Assembly (NCBI GenBank): GCA_019454765.1
Contig: JACFNR010000006.1
Location: 15,771 to 49,810, forward strand
Reading direction: 5' to 3'
Source of the DNA: Trueperaceae bacterium
GTDB taxonomy: Bacteria; Deinococcota; Deinococci; Deinococcales; Trueperaceae
DNA length: 34,040 nt
Shown here: piece after piece, positions 12,621 to 21,626 of the stretch
Position numbering within the stretch: position 1 is the stretch's first letter
How the letters are laid out: every line of letters begins with the position of its first letter
Program-made: the position numbers and the translations under genes
The notes under the pieces: model-generated
The model's input: only the letters and a program-made list of their open reading frames with translations
Databases searched by the model: none
Told to the model about the DNA's origin: nothing

Positions 12621-13131
12621 CCGCGAACCACCCCACGTCCTCCAGGGCTCCCTGGGCCGCGTCCACCGTGAAGCCCCGCCTGGCGAGGAACGCGAACGCC
12701 TTGGCGCGGGCGCGGAGCAGCTCCGGGCCCACGGCCGTGCCGGCCGCGGGGCGGTAACGCCACTCGTTCTTCCGTAGCAGCGCGGCGGCCGCGGCGCGCT
12801 GCGCGTCCGGGGTGAGGTCGCTCAGTTGCGCGTCTATGAGCGCCCGCGGCACGCCCTTGCGCGCCAGCTCGCGCCCGAGGCCGAGCCGCCCGCGCGCCGT
12901 GGCGCGCGAGTCGACGTACATGGCCGCGTAGGCCGCGTCGTCCACGAGTCGCAACTCGACCAACCGGTCGATGAGCTCGCGCGCCTGGCCCTCGGGCACC
13001 CCCCGGCGGCGCAGCTTCTCGGCGAGCTCGGCTGTCGTGTACATGCGCCGCGCCAGTATCGTCAGCAGGTAGTCCCAGGCGCGCTCGGGGCTCGGCGGTC
13101 CGTCGGCGCGCTCCCTTGGCGGTCCGGCCAT
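12610..13131 (-). CDS. recX: Regulatory protein RecX
   Basis: RecX modulates RecA filaments. The 173-residue product shows its three-helix repeats: WDYLLTILARRMYTTAELAE with KLRRRGVPEG, IDRLVELRLVDDAAYAAMYV, RELARKGVPRALIDAQL, and AKAFAFLARRGFTVDAAQGAL. The length fits the family. The ATG at 13131 shares one base with the TGA of the permease gene (TGATG), so the start is firm. No recA lies in this window; RecX here is linked to a lipoprotein-release permease instead, an uncommon pairing. Confidence 0.92.
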   Translation of the reverse strand: MAGPPRERADGPPSPERAWDYLLTILARRMYTTAELAEKLRRRGVPEGQARELIDRLVELRLVDDAAYAAMYVDSRATARGRLGLGRELARKGVPRALIDAQLSDLTPDAQRAAAAALLRKNEWRYRPAAGTAVGPELLRARAKAFAFLARRGFTVDAAQGALEDVGWFAGDD

Positions 13132-14312
13132 CAGCGCAGCACGGCCACGGGGTCGAGGCGGGCGGCGCGCCGCGCCGGCAGCAGGCCGGCGATCACGCTG
13201 GTGGCCAACGTGACGCCGCAGACCCACGTCACGTCCCACGGCTGCAACTGCACCGGCAGTTGCGTGATGAAGTAGAGGTCCCCCGGTAGCGGGTAAGGCT
13301 GGAACCGGAAGTAGGCGGCCACGCCGAGGCCGAGGAGGGCGCCGAGCAGCGTGCCTGCGCCACCCAGCAGGAAGCCCTGCAGCGTGAACGTAGCCAACAC
13401 CTGGCCCTCGGACGCCCCCAGGGCGCGCAGGATGGCGATGTCCTCGGTCTTCTCGTTGACGGTGAGCACGAGCACGTTGGTGATGCCGAAGGCCGCGACG
13501 ATCACGATGAGGAAGACGACAACGCCGATGACGGCCTTCTGCAGCCGCAGCTGCGAGATGAGACTGGCGAAGAGGCCCTCCCAGCTCAAGGGGCGAAGAG
13601 AGTACTTGCCGGCCAGGTGGAGCCCGACGGCGTGTGCCGTCGTCGGTTCCGCCAGCCGCAGGTGGTAACCAGTGACGCGCCCCTCCTCGCCCAGGTAGGC
13701 CTGCAGGTTGGCGAGGGACATGTAAGAAGTCACCGAGTCGATGAGCTCGTTGCCGACGCGGAAGGTGCCCGCCACCTCGAACTGCGCCGTGGCGCCCGAG
13801 ATGTCGCGCACCATCACGGTGTCGCCGACGACCACTCCGAGCGACAGCGCCAGCGTCGAGCCAAGCACGATCCCGCCGGCCGTGTCGAGAGCGCCGGCTT
13901 GCGCTGCCAGGACCGGCAGGTCGAGCACGGCCGTCTCCAGCGCCGTGTCGATGCCGACGATCTGGGTGAAGCCCTGCCGGGCGCTCACCCCCAGCGCCTG
14001 GCTGGCGCGCCGCGCGATGAGGGCTTGGCCGGATAGGAACGGCGCCACCGCCGTGACGCCAGGTTCGGCCCCGAGGGTCGCCAGCAGCTCGGGGTCCTCC
14101 GGCAGCGTCTCGCCCGGCATGAAGCTCTGGAGGCTGAGCATCGGGGTGGCGCGCAGGGTGCTCGTGATGAGCTCGTCGATGAAGCCGTTGGTGAGTGACA
14201 ACGCCACGATGAGAACGGCCACGCCGACCGCCACGCCGGTGACCGTGAGCACCGACTGCAGCCCGCGGCGCCGCACGTGACGCCAGGCTAGGTAGGGAAC
14301 GAGCGCCCGCAC
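13131..14312 (-). CDS. LolC/LolE-like ABC transporter permease (FtsX/MacB superfamily)
   Basis: A 393-residue inner-membrane permease. An N-terminal helix (LQSVLTVTGVAVGVAVLIVA) is followed by a large extracytoplasmic domain, about residues 45-250. Three C-terminal helices contain the FtsX core NEKTEDIAILRALGASEGQV, which contacts the ATPase, and PLPGDLYFITQLPVQL, typical of LolC/LolE. It ends in LLPARRAARLDPVAVLR. Its likely role is extraction of lipoproteins from the inner membrane or a related export task. The ATPase partner is not in the window. The GTG at 14312 sits 9 bases after the preceding gene and 6 bases after a TAAGCT box, so it may have its own leaderless transcript inside the operon. 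Confidence 0.9.
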   Translation of the reverse strand: MRALVPYLAWRHVRRRGLQSVLTVTGVAVGVAVLIVALSLTNGFIDELITSTLRATPMLSLQSFMPGETLPEDPELLATLGAEPGVTAVAPFLSGQALIARRASQALGVSARQGFTQIVGIDTALETAVLDLPVLAAQAGALDTAGGIVLGSTLALSLGVVVGDTVMVRDISGATAQFEVAGTFRVGNELIDSVTSYMSLANLQAYLGEEGRVTGYHLRLAEPTTAHAVGLHLAGKYSLRPLSWEGLFASLISQLRLQKAVIGVVVFLIVIVAAFGITNVLVLTVNEKTEDIAILRALGASEGQVLATFTLQGFLLGGAGTLLGALLGLGVAAYFRFQPYPLPGDLYFITQLPVQLQPWDVTWVCGVTLATSVIAGLLPARRAARLDPVAVLR

Positions 14313-14318
14313 GCGGCG

Positions 14319-14324
14319 AGCTTA
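14319..14324 (-). promoter_or_regulatory. Leaderless-type -10 box TAAGCT overlapping the upstream stop codon
   Basis: The TAA stop of the 3D-domain gene is the first half of TAAGCT. Six bases later comes the GTG of the permease gene: an internal promoter built into a stop codon. Confidence 0.45.
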
Positions 14325-14957
14325 GCGCGCGGCCAGCAGGATGGGCGCCGCCTCGAAACCGGAGGCGAGCGCGGGGAGCAGCTCGGGGCCGTGGCGGCCG
14401 TAACGGACGAGCTCCACCTCGACCTTGCGCACGCCCCAGGTCACCGCCTGCGAGTACGACTCGAACCAGACGTCCACCTGCTGCGACTTGCGGGAGTGCA
14501 TGGTGTCCTCGACGATGAAGAGTTGGTCGTCGAGCAGGGCCTGGAACGCGCCGACGCCGCGGCCGGTGTGGTAGTTGCCGAGGTCCCGGAGCCGGACGAG
14601 CGAACCGTACGGCAGGTCGGAGCCGAGCAGGTCGCGGCTCACGGCCATGATCCCGAAACGGGTCCGCACGCCCGTGGCGGTGATGAACGGCGTGGCGTCG
14701 GTCTGACTCGCGTGGGAGTTGTAGCCAGTGGCCCGCAACACGAAGACCGGGTTGGCGGTCGGGCCTTGCACTGGGGGCGTGGCGGGAGAGCTGCCGCGCA
14801 TGGCGAGGACTTCGGCGCGCGGTTCGATGCTGAGTTCGACGGGCGTTGGCGCCCCGGTGGGTTCGACCTCGTCGACGCGCGGCGCGCTGAAGGCCGTGAT
14901 GAGAGCGGAGATCACCAGCCCGAGGGCGATGAGCTTGCCGCTGATGTGCAGAGCCAT
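14322..14957 (-). CDS. Exported 3D-domain (double-psi barrel) protein, cell-wall associated
   Basis: A 211-residue protein with an N-terminal membrane anchor or signal (SGKLIALGLVISALITAFSA), a Pro/Glu linker, then a 3D domain. The domain includes VLRATGYNSHASQTD, FGIMAVSRDLLGSDLPYGS, VEDTMHSRKSQQVDVWF and VRKVEVELVRYG. The DTM...VD acidic residues are those that name the 3D family (MltA/YabE-type barrel), usually peptidoglycan-cleaving or stationary-phase surface proteins. The ATG at 14957 follows GGGAGGTG with 4-base spacing. It is divergent from the glycosyltransferase/lytic transglycosylase fusion and heads the permease-recX chain. Confidence 0.85.
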   Translation of the reverse strand: MALHISGKLIALGLVISALITAFSAPRVDEVEPTGAPTPVELSIEPRAEVLAMRGSSPATPPVQGPTANPVFVLRATGYNSHASQTDATPFITATGVRTRFGIMAVSRDLLGSDLPYGSLVRLRDLGNYHTGRGVGAFQALLDDQLFIVEDTMHSRKSQQVDVWFESYSQAVTWGVRKVEVELVRYGRHGPELLPALASGFEAAPILLAAR

Positions 14958-14977
14958 CTGCACCTCCCAGTCGCGGC

Positions 14978-14983
14978 ATCTTA
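14978..14983 (-). promoter_or_regulatory. Extended -10 promoter of the 3D-domain gene
   Basis: Minus strand TGC-TAAGAT, about 14 nt of leader, then GGGAGGTG and ATG at 14957. This gene thus uses a conventional leader, unlike many neighbours. Confidence 0.5.
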
Positions 14984-15183: not shown

Positions 15184-18129
15184 GTGCCCTTCATCCCCGG
15201 ACTACTCGCCACCCCCACCGTGATAGCCAACGCGCTGTTCAGCCTGGCCAGGGACGCGTCGCTGCCCGTCCTCGGTCCCGACCGCGTCGGCGTGATAGCG
15301 CCCATGTTCAACGAGGAGCTCGGGGCCGCCTCCGCGCTCGCCTCGTTGCTCGAGCAGACCACCCCCTTCGACGAGCTCGTCGTCAGCATCAACGGCGGCA
15401 CCGACGACACCGGCGGCGTCGTGAGACGGACCCTCACGGAGCACGGCTACCGGCTCGTACATCAAGGGCACGTGCCCGCCGCGACCGCCACGTTCGAGCG
15501 GTGGCTCCTCACGGGCGGGCCGACGGTCGCGGTGGTGGACCACGCGCTGCCGCTCTCCAAGTCAGACAGCATCAACGCCGCGCTCGAGGGCGGTCTGCTC
15601 AACACCGACCGCGTCCTCGTCGTGGACGGCGACACCGTCCTCGACCCGGGCTTCCTGAGCGGCCTGAGGCGTCACTTCTACCGCCTCAGGCGCAGGGGTC
15701 GTGGCGCTGCCACGCTCTACGTGCTCGAGGACTACGCCATCCAATCGGGCTCGGTCATGTCGGCGCCACCCGTTGACGGCAGGCCGATGGCGAGCCTCAT
15801 CCACAACGCCCGCGCCGCCGAGTACGCCATCTCGACGGTCTTGCGGCTCGGCCAGACGACCCGGCTCGGGGACGGGGCCGTCTTCGGGCGTTCCCGCCTG
15901 TACACCGTCGTGGGCTGCGGCTTCACGGCGCGGCGCCAGTGCTTCCCCATGCCCTCCGACACGCTCACCGAGGACCACGACTTCACGCTCGCCGTGCAGA
16001 ACGAGCCCCTCGCCGCGGAGCCGGTCACGGGCGCCGAGCTGGCCGAGCGGGGCTTCCGTGTGGTGGTGGACGGCGAGGAGCTGCCCCTGGACGCCGTCAC
16101 CGGCGATCACCCCGTGGTGTTGCGCCGGGGCGGCGACGCCAGGTTCGTCAGCGACGCCCTCATGTACACCGACGACCCACCCACCCTACCTGGCTACCTG
16201 CGCCAGATCGAGCGCTGGAACGGCGGTGGGGTCGAGAACGCCCTCAAGCGCCTGTTCGTGCGTCCCGTCTGGCGCGGCCTGCACGGCAACGTGCGCTTCA
16301 CCCTGCTGGCCGCTCAGTTCGAGAACCTCCTCGGCCTCCTCCTGCTCCTCCTCATGCTGCCCCTCGCGTTGGGGCTCAACTTCGCGTTGCCCGGTCACGG
16401 CACGCCCCTGAGGGGCATGCTCGTCTGGCTGGGCGTGGACCTGCTGGCCACGGGCCTGCTCACCACGCTCGGCTTCTGGCGGCAGGGGCGCGGGCTCGGC
16501 CGGTCGGGCGCGCCGCTGCAGCGGTGGATGTGGCGCCGCATCCCCGGCTCCGTCCTAGCGCTCGGCCTGTTGCGCGTCTTCAACGCCGTCACGTTCGTCA
16601 CCGGTGCGCTCCGCGCCACCGCGCGCTTCGTGGGGCGCAAGGAGGTCGACCCTCGCGCCACCATCACGTGGGTGCGCCCGCGAGCGGGCACGGCCAAGCG
16701 CACGCAAGCCAGGTTCCTCGGGGCCTCCGGCGGCCTGATGTCCTTCGCCGTCGGCATCTTCGGGCTCACCGCCTGGATCGCCGGCGACTCCAGACCCGGC
16801 TACCGCGACACGTGGCGCCTCATCAACGAGTCCGTTCCCGTGCTGCAGTCGCAGCACCAGCAGCTGCCCCTCCCCCTCGCCGGCAGCAGCGTGCTGGGCC
16901 TGGTGCCTGACGCAGGCCTCACGGCCGATGCCGCGACCCCCATGAAGGACGCAGCCGGCGGCGGCGTACCGGCAGCGGACGGTGCGCCCGCCACGGGCGG
17001 TGCGCCCGCCACGGGCGCCGACAGCCACGCCGACACCCGCCCCGACGCGGCGGTCGCCACCACCGGTACCGCCGAGGGCGCCGCCGATGGCATCGGCGAC
17101 GGCATCGGGGCCGTGGTCGGCGCCGTGGTGGCCACGCTGGGTGCCGACGCGGGCCCCGCGGACGGGGCGGGGGAAGCCGCCAGCGCGGCCGGGGCAGCGG
17201 ACGCCGTCGTAGCCCACACACGCGCCGTCACCGGACCGGTGGCCGCGCTCCCGCCCGGGACCGAACTGCTCGGGTCGGCGCAGGCCGCCCTCGGCCTGAA
17301 GGTCGTCACGACCGGCACGGGACGCCACGGCGTGTCGGCGTTCTGCAGCGTCGCGGACGTGGCGCGACCGGCCGACCGACCGCGGCTCCTCGCCGGCCCC
17401 GCCGACGAGTACGAGCCCCTGTCGAGCTGGGGTCTGCTCGTGCTGGCGCGCCTGGCGCCGCTCGTCGCCAACATCGAGGAGGCGGCGACCGCCTACGACG
17501 TGCCCGCCGACCTCGTGCTGAGAGTGCTGCTCAACGAGTCGTACCTCGACCCGCTGGCGGTCGGACCGACGGGGGACCTCGGGCTGTCGCAGGTGACCAG
17601 CGACGCGTTGACGCTGTTGAGGGCGATCTCCACGGACGCCCTGTCGCCCTTCGCGAACGGCCGCTTCTTCGCCGGCGACTTCTCGGTGTTCGACCCCGAC
17701 TTCTCCGTGTGCGCCGGCGCCGCCAAGCTGGCCTGGGCGCGCGCCCAGCCGGGAGGCGCCGACGAGCGGTTCGCTTACGCGCGCTACATCAACCCGTTGG
17801 CGGGCGTCGTGCGCGGCAAGATCAGCCCGCGTCACCAGGAGCTCGTCGAGGCCATCGGCGACCTGAGGCCGCTGGCTGCCGCGCTGGAGCGGACGATCGC
17901 CGCCTACCGCCGTGACCCGCAGTCGGTGACCGACAAGGAGCGCGCCCTGCTCGGCGTCACCACCCTCGTCGCCGACGGCACGCTCACGGTCGGTCAGGCA
18001 TACTTCGTCACGGCGGAGCTGGTGCAGAGCTTCGGGATCGACGACCGCGACCTGTACGACGCCGTGCGACACCGGCTTTACGGCGAGGCCGCGCAGCCGC
18101 CGAGCGATGGCGGGGGCGGCGTCGGTTGA
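15184..18129 (+). CDS. Fusion protein: GT2 glycosyltransferase + membrane helices + lytic-transglycosylase-like domain
   Basis: A 981-residue protein. Residues 33-350 form a processive-type GT2 domain: VIAPMFNEE, VVDGD (Asp148/150, nucleotide-sugar/metal), TEDHD (262-266, base) and QIERW (341-345). A non-canonical insert of about 50 residues lies between the last two motifs. Hydrophobic segments follow near 374-402, 411-431, 454-482 (possibly interfacial) and 514-534. A low-complexity Ala/Gly linker spans 575-690. Residues 750-890 resemble SLT lytic transglycosylases: VPADLVLRVLLNESYLDP (Glu785) and VGPTGDLGLSQV. One polypeptide could therefore polymerise a glycan and, if the C-terminus is extracytoplasmic, cut or bind peptidoglycan. 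The GTG at 15184 follows GAGGAA. The stop is 18 bases from the convergent dehydrogenase gene. Confidence 0.85.
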   Translation: MPFIPGLLATPTVIANALFSLARDASLPVLGPDRVGVIAPMFNEELGAASALASLLEQTTPFDELVVSINGGTDDTGGVVRRTLTEHGYRLVHQGHVPAATATFERWLLTGGPTVAVVDHALPLSKSDSINAALEGGLLNTDRVLVVDGDTVLDPGFLSGLRRHFYRLRRRGRGAATLYVLEDYAIQSGSVMSAPPVDGRPMASLIHNARAAEYAISTVLRLGQTTRLGDGAVFGRSRLYTVVGCGFTARRQCFPMPSDTLTEDHDFTLAVQNEPLAAEPVTGAELAERGFRVVVDGEELPLDAVTGDHPVVLRRGGDARFVSDALMYTDDPPTLPGYLRQIERWNGGGVENALKRLFVRPVWRGLHGNVRFTLLAAQFENLLGLLLLLLMLPLALGLNFALPGHGTPLRGMLVWLGVDLLATGLLTTLGFWRQGRGLGRSGAPLQRWMWRRIPGSVLALGLLRVFNAVTFVTGALRATARFVGRKEVDPRATITWVRPRAGTAKRTQARFLGASGGLMSFAVGIFGLTAWIAGDSRPGYRDTWRLINESVPVLQSQHQQLPLPLAGSSVLGLVPDAGLTADAATPMKDAAGGGVPAADGAPATGGAPATGADSHADTRPDAAVATTGTAEGAADGIGDGIGAVVGAVVATLGADAGPADGAGEAASAAGAADAVVAHTRAVTGPVAALPPGTELLGSAQAALGLKVVTTGTGRHGVSAFCSVADVARPADRPRLLAGPADEYEPLSSWGLLVLARLAPLVANIEEAATAYDVPADLVLRVLLNESYLDPLAVGPTGDLGLSQVTSDALTLLRAISTDALSPFANGRFFAGDFSVFDPDFSVCAGAAKLAWARAQPGGADERFAYARYINPLAGVVRGKISPRHQELVEAIGDLRPLAAALERTIAAYRRDPQSVTDKERALLGVTTLVADGTLTVGQAYFVTAELVQSFGIDDRDLYDAVRHRLYGEAAQPPSDGGGGVG
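16981..17016 (+). repeat. Two tandem 18-bp repeats in the linker of the fusion gene
   Basis: GGTGCGCCCGCCACGGGC occurs twice back to back (16981-16998 and 16999-17016), encoding Gly-Ala-Pro-Ala-Thr-Gly units in the linker between the membrane helices and the C-terminal domain. Confidence 0.9.
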
Positions 18130-18147: not shown

Positions 18148-19476
18148 CTACTCGGCCGGCGCCTCCCGCAGGCGCGCCAGCGTGCCGTCGACGGTGAGGA
18201 GCAGCACCTCGCCCTGGGGTCCGGCGACGATGGCCAGCATGGCCCCCGCCCGCTCGAGCAGCGGTCGCACCTCGCCGGTGGCCCTGTCGAGGGCCCAGAG
18301 CCGTCCCGAGATGAAGTCGCCGAAGAGGTAGGCCCCCCGCAGGGACGGTAGCTCCCTGTCGGTGACCTCCACGCCGCCGACCACCGACTTGCCGCCGGCC
18401 TCGTCGGTACCGGGGTGCCCGTAGTAGGCGATGGGCGCCACGGTTGCCAGCGCCTCGCAGTCGCCGGCGACGAGGGTGCCGTCCTCGGGGTGGTGGAAGC
18501 ACTCGGGCCCCTCGCGGACGGGCCAACCGTAGTTGGCGCCCGCCGCCACCAGGTCGATCTCCTCCCAGCGGTCCTCGCCCACGTCGGCGAGGAGCAACGC
18601 GCCGTCCGAGGGCGCGAAGGTGAACTTCCACGGGTTGCGGAAGCCGTAGGCCCAGACCTCGCCGCGCGCGCCCGCGGCGGCGGCCGCCGCGTTCGTGGCC
18701 GGCGTGAACGGGTTATCGGACGGCACCGCGTACGGTGCGGCGCTGCCCTGGGGGAACGGGTCGAGACGCAGGACCTTGCCGCGCAGCGAGCTCAGGTCCT
18801 GCGCCGCGTGCGGGCGGTCATACAGGTAGGCGGGGTCCTGCTGGCCGTCGCCTATGCTCACGTAGAGCATGCCGTCCGGTCCGAAGGCCACCTGGCCGCC
18901 GTGATGGAACGGTTGCGGCATCGGTTGGCGCAGGAGCACCACCTCGCCCTCCCCGTCGGCTCCGTCTAGGTCCGGCAGGAGCGGGTAGGCGGCGACGACG
19001 AGGTCGTTCGTGCCCGCCTCCGTGAACGCCGCGACGAGATGCGCCGGCCCGCCTCGCGCCGCCGCTCGCTCCCGCGGCTCGAGGGCGACGGAGAACAGGC
19101 CTTGCTCGCCCAGCAGCCCGGTCACGCGCCCGGCGAGCGACAGGAACGGGTCGGGTTCCACCCGTCCGTCCTGGTAGCGGAAGACCGAGCCGTCCAGGGC
19201 GACGACGAGCAGGGCCCCCGTGTCGTAGAGCGGTACCGCGGCCACGGGGAGCCGCAGGCCGGTGGCGAGCACCTCGAGGCGGTAGCCCGGGGGGCTCGGC
19301 GGGACCGCGGGCGGAGCCTGTTGGGCGGCGCCGGTGGACGAAAGGGCCGCCGCGAGGACCGTCAGGGCCACGACGAGGAGGGTCGCCGAGAGGCGCCGGG
19401 CGCCGGTGGGGCGGTGGTCGGGTGAGCGAGGCCGCTTTCGGGGGTGGCGGGCGGGGGGCCGCTGGGCGAGGTTCAT
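18148..19476 (-). CDS. PQQ-dependent sugar dehydrogenase-like protein (soluble aldose dehydrogenase family)
   Basis: A 442-residue exported protein. A basic N-terminus and hydrophobic stretch (LSATLLVVALTVLAAALSS) end near GAAQQ, a likely signal peptide. The six-bladed propeller is of the sGDH/Asd/HHIP type: LRLPVAAVPLYDTGALLVV, EQGLFSVALEP, FHHGGQVAFGPDGMLYVSIG (catalytic His area), WAYGFRNPWKFTF, WEEIDLVAAGANYGWP and GAYLFGDF. It should oxidise an aldose in the periplasm with PQQ, if that cofactor is available; no pqq genes are in the window. Its ATG overlaps the TGA of the upstream GH26-like gene (ATGA), so the two are co-translated. Confidence 0.9.
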   Translation of the reverse strand: MNLAQRPPARHPRKRPRSPDHRPTGARRLSATLLVVALTVLAAALSSTGAAQQAPPAVPPSPPGYRLEVLATGLRLPVAAVPLYDTGALLVVALDGSVFRYQDGRVEPDPFLSLAGRVTGLLGEQGLFSVALEPRERAAARGGPAHLVAAFTEAGTNDLVVAAYPLLPDLDGADGEGEVVLLRQPMPQPFHHGGQVAFGPDGMLYVSIGDGQQDPAYLYDRPHAAQDLSSLRGKVLRLDPFPQGSAAPYAVPSDNPFTPATNAAAAAAGARGEVWAYGFRNPWKFTFAPSDGALLLADVGEDRWEEIDLVAAGANYGWPVREGPECFHHPEDGTLVAGDCEALATVAPIAYYGHPGTDEAGGKSVVGGVEVTDRELPSLRGAYLFGDFISGRLWALDRATGEVRPLLERAGAMLAIVAGPQGEVLLLTVDGTLARLREAPAE

Positions 19477-20507
19477 CGCCCGGCGATGTTACTCCTTGCG
19501 GGCGCGGTACTCGCAAGCGAGGCCGCGCCGAGCCCGCGTCGTGCCCCGGCGGCCTCGAAGTAGTTCCGGAACGCCTCCAGGGAGTCCGTGGAGCTCTCTA
19601 TGCGCCAGTCGGTCTCCTTGTCCTCGTTGAACCAGACGAGCGCTTCGACGCGGGGGAAGGCCGTGGAACGGAGCATGTCCTCGATCCAATCGGCCTTGTC
19701 GCCGCCTGATTCGGCCGAGGCGATCTCGGCGAGCCACACGGCCTGGGGTCCCACGCGGGAGATGCGGCGGTACCCCTCGGCGAAGACCTGCTCGAAGCTG
19801 CGCCAGCCGATGTACGGCTTCACGTCGCCCCAGTTGTAGCCGTCGAGGCCGAGGACGTCGACGTAGTCGTGACCCGGGTAGTAGAGCTCCATCGCGTTGG
19901 CGGCGGTGCGCGGCTCGTCGGTCACGTTGGGCGTGAACACCCACCGGACGTTGGTGGCGCCCTCCCGCCTGAAGAGGTCGACGACGTGGCGCCAGGCGGC
20001 CCGCAGCGTGGCGGGGTCGCCGCTCCACGGCGTCCAGTCGCCGTTCATCTCGGGGAAGATGCGCACGTACACGACGCCGGCCGCGCCCCTGACGCCTCGC
20101 GCCCACGCGGCGATGTAAGCGTCGTGGCGGCCCGCCACGATGTCGGGCAGGGTCTGCGTGTGCGCCTGCCAGGTGACGAGGGGGATACGCCCATGCTCGA
20201 GGACGTCGTCGACCGGGACGGGGTCGTAGGGGGTGTCCCACGAGGCGTACCAGTGAGCCAGGACGAACTCGCCCCCCAGTCGCTGTTCGAGCGCCTTGAA
20301 CGGGCCCAGGTCGTTCCACACGCCGGACGGGATGAACGCGCCCACCAGCGGCGGCGTGTGCGGGAGGTCGGCGGCGCGGTCGGTCGGCGCGGAGCAGGCG
20401 GGGACGACGAGGAGCGCCGCCAACGCCAGCAGCGCGGGGAGGGCCCACGACGACCGGGGTCGCGCGGGGCGCGTGCGCGTGGCGGGGGGAGGGAACGGTT
20501 GCGTCAT
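19473..20507 (-). CDS. GH26-like glycoside hydrolase lipoprotein (copy 1)
   Basis: A 344-residue lipoprotein. The N-terminal basic/hydrophobic region ends in the lipobox LVVPAC (Cys38). The remainder is a (beta/alpha)8 barrel of GH26 type: PLVGAFIPSGVWND, HWYASWDTP, VRIFPEMNGDWTPW with the candidate acid/base Glu, GATNVRWVFTPNVTD, YVDVLGLDGYNWGD, and VWLAEIASAESGG with the candidate nucleophile Glu. In characterised GH26 mannanases a His precedes the acid/base Glu; here it is Pro, so the substrate may not be mannan. It is closely related to the gene at 20625-21620 (tandem duplication). It overlaps the dehydrogenase gene by 4 bases. The start has no clear ribosome-binding site. Confidence 0.85.
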   Translation of the reverse strand: MTQPFPPPATRTRPARPRSSWALPALLALAALLVVPACSAPTDRAADLPHTPPLVGAFIPSGVWNDLGPFKALEQRLGGEFVLAHWYASWDTPYDPVPVDDVLEHGRIPLVTWQAHTQTLPDIVAGRHDAYIAAWARGVRGAAGVVYVRIFPEMNGDWTPWSGDPATLRAAWRHVVDLFRREGATNVRWVFTPNVTDEPRTAANAMELYYPGHDYVDVLGLDGYNWGDVKPYIGWRSFEQVFAEGYRRISRVGPQAVWLAEIASAESGGDKADWIEDMLRSTAFPRVEALVWFNEDKETDWRIESSTDSLEAFRNYFEAAGARRGLGAASLASTAPARSNIAGR

Positions 20508-20624: not shown

Positions 20625-21620
20625 TCAGCGGGCGTCGGCGAGGACGATGCCCGCGGCCAAGGACTCGCGGAACGCCTGCAGCGTGGCGGGGTCGGAGTCG
20701 ATGCGCCAGTCGGCTTCCTTCTCCTCGTTGAACCAGATCAGGGCCTCGATGCGGTCGAAGCCGGTGGTGGCGAACATGTCGCGGACCCAGTCGCTCTTGT
20801 CGCCCCCCTCGTCGGCGCTGGCGAACTCGGCGATCCAGACGGGTTGGTCACCCAGCGCGGTGACTCGGTCGTAACCGCCGCGGAACACCGTCTCGAACGA
20901 GCGCCAGCCCACGCTCGGCAGCGCGTCGCCCCAGTTGTAACCGTCGAGGGCGAGCACGTCCACGTAGTCGTCGCCCGGGTAGTAGAGCTCCATCGCATTG
21001 CCCGGCGTCCGGGGTGAGTCGGTCACGTTGGGGCTGAACACCCAGCGGACGTTGGTGGCACCCTCCTCGCGGAAGAGCGTCACCAGCCGGCGCCAGGCCG
21101 CGCGGAGGGTGGCGGGGTCGCCGTTCCACGGCGTCCAGTCGCCGTTCATCTCCGGGAACGGTCGCACGTATAGGAGGCCGGGCGCCGTGGCGGCCCCCCG
21201 GGCCCACTCCCGGATGTAGTCGTCGTAAGCGCCGGCGGCGATGTCGGCGTTGGACTGGTTGTGGCTCTGCCAGCTGATCATTGGCCTACGGCCGCCCTGC
21301 GAGGCGAGCGCGACGAGTTCCGGGAAGTACGGGTTCTCCCAGTTGGTGAACCAGTGCACGACGTCGAGGCGCCTGCCGATGTTGAGCTCGAGCTGCAAGA
21401 TGGGGTCGATCCCCTGCCACACCCCGCCGAACGTGAAGGCGCCGAACAGCGCCGTGGACTCGAGGCTGCTCTCGGTGGGCTGCGGCACGTCGCGCTCAGT
21501 ATGTGCCGGGGCGGTGCCGCAGGCGCTGAGGAGCAGGGCCACGCTCAGGGCGGCCGCGGCCCGCAGGTCGACGCGCCGGCGCCCGCGGCGCCCCTCATCG
21601 TGCACTTGCAGTCTCGCCAT
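20625..21620 (-). CDS. GH26-like glycoside hydrolase lipoprotein (copy 2, riboswitch-controlled)
   Basis: A 331-residue lipoprotein: basic start, hydrophobic helix AAAALSVALLLSAC with the lipid-carrying Cys34, then a GH26-type barrel. Matching blocks to copy 1 include VRPFPEMNGDWTPW, GATNVRWVFSPNVTD, YVDVLALDGYNWGD and VWIAEFASADEGGDKSDW, giving the same candidate catalytic Glu pair and the same His-to-Pro change. I chose the ATG at 21620 because GGGG lies 6 bases upstream; an ATG at 21626 would add two residues. Its leader of about 325 nt carries tandem c-di-GMP-II aptamers and a hairpin over the start site, so expression should answer to cyclic di-GMP. The product probably trims an extracellular or cell-wall glycan. 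Confidence 0.85.
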   Translation of the reverse strand: MARLQVHDEGRRGRRRVDLRAAAALSVALLLSACGTAPAHTERDVPQPTESSLESTALFGAFTFGGVWQGIDPILQLELNIGRRLDVVHWFTNWENPYFPELVALASQGGRRPMISWQSHNQSNADIAAGAYDDYIREWARGAATAPGLLYVRPFPEMNGDWTPWNGDPATLRAAWRRLVTLFREEGATNVRWVFSPNVTDSPRTPGNAMELYYPGDDYVDVLALDGYNWGDALPSVGWRSFETVFRGGYDRVTALGDQPVWIAEFASADEGGDKSDWVRDMFATTGFDRIEALIWFNEEKEADWRIDSDPATLQAFRESLAAGIVLADAR

Positions 21621-21626
21621 GCGCAT

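Follow-up and report, generated by a model that had tools for sequence, protein, structure and literature searches.

A predicted processive polysaccharide synthase fused to a lytic-transglycosylase-like domain in the Trueperaceae

We identified a single open reading frame in which a family 2 glycosyltransferase (GT2) is joined to a domain resembling lytic transglycosylases (SLT). The frame lies in a stretch of 34,040 nucleotides from a Trueperaceae bacterium (contig JACFNR010000006.1), hereafter the window, in whose numbering coordinates are given unless another locus is named. It runs from 15184 to 18129 on the plus strand, encodes 981 amino acids, and starts with GTG about 10 nucleotides downstream of GAGGAA, which resembles a ribosome-binding sequence. 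The GT2 and SLT halves are each of a known kind, and no published fusion of a GT2 to a lytic transglycosylase was found in the open-access literature that we searched. Among the genomes searched, the fusion is restricted to one bacterial family, where it is closely associated with genes for lichenase-type GH26 lipoproteins.

The original prediction described this two-domain build from the translation, in which the 981-residue frame and the motifs VDGD, TED, QIERW, Glu785 and GPTGDLGLSQV are each present, and named an assembly artefact among the results that would overturn it. The fusion is real. Both domains occur in one frame in 22 sequences from 22 genomes, including one single-contig assembly, and in a 23rd sequence (L024) the contig is cut at its end so that the C-terminal part alone is visible. 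The build and its conservation are thereby borne out. Third-position GC is 0.89 to 0.95 along the entire window ORF, as in coding sequence, and in both the GT and the SLT parts the differences from relatives cluster at third codon positions. An artefact of annotation or assembly is refuted by the 22 independent one-frame copies, the single-contig assembly among them, and its probability is negligible.

The GT2 catalytic module, predicted to be cytoplasmic, occupies residues 33–370 (15280..16293, plus strand). It matches PF13632 (E = 1.7e-9), PF00535 and PF13641, all above their curated cut-offs, and PF13632 is matched by 22 of the 23 family members. The D,D,D,QxxRW signature of processive GT2 synthases is complete and consists of residues that are invariant in the family: D74, D148 and D150 of the DxD motif VDGD (residues 147–150; 15622..15633, plus strand), the catalytic-base motif TED (residues 262–264; 15967..15975, plus strand), and Q341, R344 and W345 of QIERW (residues 341–345; 16204..16218, plus strand). 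The module is followed by membrane helices (A, B and D, together with a segment C), as expected of such enzymes. The fusion is predicted to be a processive GT2 polysaccharide synthase.

In common with PgaC/IcaA, NodC, BcsA and the mixed-linkage glucan synthases BgsA and RiGT2, the fusion has the D,D,D,QxxRW residues, a GT module preceding the membrane helices, and an interfacial helix and a gating loop that come in the same order. In contrast to these synthases it lacks an N-terminal helix pair and carries the SLT domain where they have a cytoplasmic C-terminus. A PilZ domain, as would be required for assignment to BcsA, is absent among Pfam matches to E = 1. The GT2 part is divergent and scores far beneath the NCBIfam equivalog cut-offs for PgaC and NodC; the PgaC_IcaA profile gives 24.6 bits against a cut-off of 422.3. 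Between TED and QxxRW there is an insert of about 40 residues (272–312; window 15997-16119) that is missing from the unfused GT2 P0003.

The C-terminal domain spans residues 714–981 (17323..18126, plus strand) and comprises an SLT core (residues 763–868) and a conserved tail. The core matches PF01464 with E = 5.9e-7 and 29.5 bits, above the Pfam gathering cut-off of 21.3, so that the SLT-like character first proposed for this region is supported by the profile search; 22 of the 23 family members yield an SLT match (E ≤ 0.01). The best solved relative of the C-terminal profile is MltC (entry 4c5f, E = 0.0074). Glu785 (17536..17538, plus strand), the predicted catalytic acid/base, aligns with the MltC glutamate that is replaced in entry 4cfo. 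This residue is invariant in all 23 sequences, as are Ser786, Gln803, Tyr868 and Asn870, and further invariant positions are N784, P790, G794, T796, D798, G800, A864, Y865 and P871. The catalytic Glu followed by G-x-x-Q that characterizes family 1 lytic transglycosylases is found as E785 and G800-L-S-Q803. The AYN motif of standard SLTs appears to correspond to Y868-x-N870, with one inserted residue, in a manual reading against L082, the ordinary SLT of the same genome. Over this Glu-to-Gln stretch the domain aligns with L082 and also with L026, an SLT from a related genome, and the C-terminal family scores 11 and 28 bits against two standard SLTs. Because a separate ordinary SLT is present, the fusion is not the sole such enzyme in its genome.

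The domain shares with family 1 lytic transglycosylases such as Slt70 and MltC (GH23, PF01464) the catalytic Glu in an (N)ES context, the G-x-x-Q motif, and the GA..L helix. Unlike them, it is always fused to a synthase, contains an invariant pair of cysteines, appears to have YxN in place of AYN, and possesses the additional conserved tail. Identity to the window sequence is 42–78% for the SLT part and 45–70% for the GT part. Conservation is similar in the two parts, and the SLT part is therefore not a decaying passenger, which is expected if it is functional. AlphaFold2 models built from an alignment of the window sequence, L032 and L033 only had a mean pLDDT of 31.7 for the full protein and 40.3 for the C-terminal domain, and Foldseek with the C-terminal model at this pLDDT of 40 returned nothing meaningful. 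Matches of the whole protein to ribosomal P2 and SPAG1 in the PDB fall within the low-complexity linker and look compositional.

Two topologies had been considered in the original prediction, one with four crossing helices and the C-terminus inside, the other with residues 454–482 interfacial and the C-terminus outside. Three arguments from sequence support the second, and the SLT domain is very probably located outside the membrane. Helix A (residues 374–398; 16303..16377, plus strand) would cross from inside to outside and helix B (residues 411–431; 16414..16476, plus strand) would return. Segment C (residues 457–477; 16552..16614, plus strand) is less hydrophobic than helices A and B, carries a conserved Lys or Arg at its middle, and is probably an interfacial helix similar to IFH3. 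It is flanked by loops rich in basic residues, with family means of 5.5 K+R and 0.5 acidic residues in loop 432–456 and of 8.7 K+R and 2.1 acidic residues in loop 478–511; the A–B loop has a mean of 0.7 K+R. By the positive-inside rule, both flanking loops would be cytoplasmic, so that segment C would lie on the membrane face rather than cross it.

The second argument comes from the order of elements. TWVRP (residues 495–499; 16666..16680, plus strand), in which W496 and R498 are conserved in at least 90% of sequences, lies where BcsA has its gating loop and would be cytoplasmic. It is followed by helix D (residues 512–533; 16717..16782, plus strand), which is predicted to cross from inside to outside. 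We infer that the order segment C, TWxRP, helix D corresponds to IFH3, gating loop and next crossing helix in BcsA, for which the residues and order have been described (PMC10374906). The third argument rests on cysteines. After residue 470, numbered as in the window, all 23 sequences have exactly two, Cys721 (17344..17346, plus strand) and Cys843 (17710..17712, plus strand), and a lone invariant pair would be expected if a disulfide forms in an oxidising compartment; the two are probable disulfide partners. A protein with four crossing helices and a cytoplasmic C-terminus, whose SLT-like domain would have some other role inside the cell, agrees with a simple hydropathy count, by which residues 457–477 are hydrophobic enough to cross. 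However, the basic loops on both sides of this segment, the charged residue within it, and the two lone invariant cysteines in the C-terminal half make such an arrangement very improbable.

Helix D leads into an Ala/Gly-rich linker of variable length (residues 534–713; 16783..17322, plus strand), which would be extracytoplasmic. Such a linker had been predicted and is present, but its length is a peculiarity of this genome: the stretch equivalent to residues 534–700 has 167 residues here and 40 to 167 in the family, with a much shorter mean of 73. A feature that the original prediction did not include is a short hydrophobic stretch near the N-terminus (residues 5–22; 15196..15249, plus strand), which is conserved in the family and contains no Lys, Arg, Asp or Glu in 21 of 21 sequences. 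It may be an interfacial or re-entrant helix, or a reverse anchor.

Strong matches to the fusion were confined to the Trueperaceae, the family of the window, among the 151 genomes searched. The survey across Deinococcota that had been proposed as a check found strong matches to the C-terminal domain in 23 of 111 genomes, every one from Trueperaceae, and the domain always lies within the fusion frame with the exception of the cut contig L024. Occurrence within the family is patchy (23 of 39 genomes), and some Trueperaceae genomes are without the entire module. No further genome with the fusion was present among 390 genomes spread over bacteria, and no relatives occurred in viral contigs or plasmids. 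A contig search with one sequence as query recovered two true relatives only. Among close relatives, no unfused counterpart was found in the phylum.

The gene convergent with the fusion (18148..19476, minus strand) encodes a secreted protein resembling glucose/sorbosone dehydrogenases (PF07995, E = 1.4e-31). It too has an invariant Cys pair, and its best orthologues (greater than 450 bits) come from 15 genomes, each of which carries the fusion. Beyond it are genes for two lichenase-type GH26 proteins (19473..20507, minus strand, PF02156, E = 2.4e-11; and 20625..21626, minus strand, PF02156, E = 1.8e-9). The GH26 proteins beside the fusion have lipoprotein-type signals. Among the 39 Trueperaceae genomes, GH26 is present in 21 of the 23 with the fusion and in none of the 16 without it (Fisher 4e-9, with genomes treated as independent despite their kinship within one family). 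The 21 include G012, where the GH26 match is weaker and unlinked to the fusion. The fusion-bearing genomes in which GH26 was not found are G015 and G026; both assemblies are incomplete (89% and 79%), and in both the fusion lies close to the end of a contig. Clustering places GH26 beside the fusion at 14 of the 20 loci, to which G009, G016 and G027 can be added for a total of at least 17, and the two are neighbours even at loci that share no other synteny.

Two other genes close to the fusion, and some in related genomes, may be noted. The product of the divergent upstream gene (window 14322-14978, minus strand) is anchored in the membrane and contains a weakly matching 3D/YuiC-like domain (E = 0.53 for YuiC; for PF06725, E = 0.011 at best, in relatives). 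The gene is conserved at each of the 8 syntenic loci, and its product is possibly another peptidoglycan-acting protein. The adjacent gene (window 13131-14312, minus strand) encodes a LolC/E-like permease of the lipoprotein-releasing kind, whose match to TIGR02212 (E = 1.1e-66) falls below the cut-off. This permease is of interest because the GH26 partners are lipoproteins. In some relatives, right-handed beta-helix proteins, a fold that often acts on polysaccharides, are encoded near the fusion (L060, 9230-10855, minus strand; L051, 5561-7933, minus strand).

The closest solved relatives of the GH26 family are all CtLic26A (endoglucanase H, a lichenase), with 228 bits and E = 7.5e-67 over about 260 aligned positions, whereas other GH26 enzymes score at most 42 bits against the family profile (best E = 4e-10). 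Residues E159 and E267 of the GH26 partner, which we take to be its catalytic pair, are invariant and align with the conserved glutamates of EANGDW and AEFAS in CtLic26A. Lichenases form a branch separate from mannanases in the GH26 phylogeny (PMC6556568), and the partner is predicted to belong to the lichenase branch. In contrast to CtLic26A, which is a plant-wall degrading enzyme, the partner is a lipoprotein beside a synthase.

The best GH26 match outside Trueperaceae comes from a genome of a sister family (G043). At this locus (L094, 8928-11369, minus strand) three consecutive genes share one strand: a GH16 gene comes first, a gene for a processive GT2 that is not fused comes second, and the gene for the same lichenase-type GH26 is directly behind that of the GT2. 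The GT2 has TED and QRLRW and can be aligned with the fusion family over residues 28–359 (hhalign, E = 5.6e-15). We regard L094 as a candidate cluster for beta-glucan synthesis without the SLT fusion. The placement of its GT2 between GH16 and GH26, together with the co-occurrence and adjacency of GH26 and the fusion, upholds the earlier view that the fusion is part of a polysaccharide system. Since GT2 and lichenase-type GH26 are also paired where the SLT domain is absent, a polymer of the beta-glucan type is the best guess, and it is probably the product of the fusion system. Mannan is rated lower, as the GH26 resembles lichenase much more closely than it does mannanases. In one relative (L058), a polysaccharide deacetylase (PF01522; 14731-15885, plus strand) is encoded between the fusion and GH26. 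A possible amino-sugar polymer would fit this gene, which is a point against the beta-glucan reading.

Based on the domain build, the conservation of the catalytic residues and of the fusion itself, and the GH26 linkage, all established computationally, we propose that the protein could be a one-chain machine for synthase-dependent exopolysaccharide. We infer that sugars would be added processively from a nucleotide sugar by the GT2 module in the cytoplasm, and that the polymer would exit via the synthase's own membrane segments, namely two helices, the interfacial helix with the gating loop, and a third helix. This last helix would hold the lytic-transglycosylase domain outside the membrane by a flexible tether. 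In that place, the domain most likely cuts peptidoglycan locally, which would let the polymer pass or be laid into the wall, and the separate lichenase-type GH26 lipoproteins may trim or release the polymer, comparable to BcsZ in cellulose systems. The BcsA–BcsZ and PgaC–PgaB modules likewise combine a synthase with a glycosidase that works on the product outside the cytoplasm. They differ from the fusion, in which the synthase and the wall-acting enzyme form one covalent chain.

On the more conjectural matter of the target of the SLT domain, we favor the opening or remodeling of peptidoglycan at the site of polymer exit, and give this roughly an even chance. Synthase systems usually include extracytoplasmic hydrolases that act on their product (BcsZ, PgaB, PelA), and the domain might instead trim or terminate the nascent polymer as a lysozyme-fold glycosidase that does not act on peptidoglycan. 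Its tethering at the synthase exit, its altered third SLT motif and the distance of the family from ordinary SLTs, evident in the MltC E-value and the two bit scores above, are compatible with this role. However, dedicated GH26 partners are already available for trimming and the signature E...GLSQ belongs to peptidoglycan lytic transglycosylases, and we consider polymer trimming unlikely. The diverged third motif might also indicate a domain that binds peptidoglycan without cutting it and merely anchors the synthase to the wall. Yet all 23 sequences, some with an overall identity as low as 38%, keep the catalytic Glu and the Gln of GLSQ unchanged, a constraint that mere binding would not impose, and a purely binding role appears somewhat less likely again.

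Another role would be to join new polymer to peptidoglycan through transglycosylation. Lytic transglycosylases do perform a transglycosylation, the domain would be held at the polymer exit, and some Deinococcota carry wall-bound polymers. However, enzymes of this family do not usually catalyse intermolecular transfer, and ligation is the most doubtful of the three roles set against local cleavage. The same low likelihood applies to a self-contained synthase-ligase, in which the SLT domain would transfer the end of a peptidoglycan glycan onto the emerging polymer. If this were true, one chain would both make a wall polysaccharide and bond it to peptidoglycan.

How polysaccharides made by synthases pass the peptidoglycan layer, or are joined to it, is poorly understood. 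Wall-cutting enzymes have mostly been linked to protein machines that are exported, for instance flagella and secretion systems. In the fusion, synthesis is coupled to a wall-cutting domain and both catalytic sets are kept across the family, so that the question can be tested by point mutations in a single gene. For Deinococcota, about whose envelope polysaccharides little is known, the lichenase-type GH26 linked to the fusion offers a concrete hypothesis as to the polymer. With a single molecule, the cell may both make a polymer and open the wall for it.
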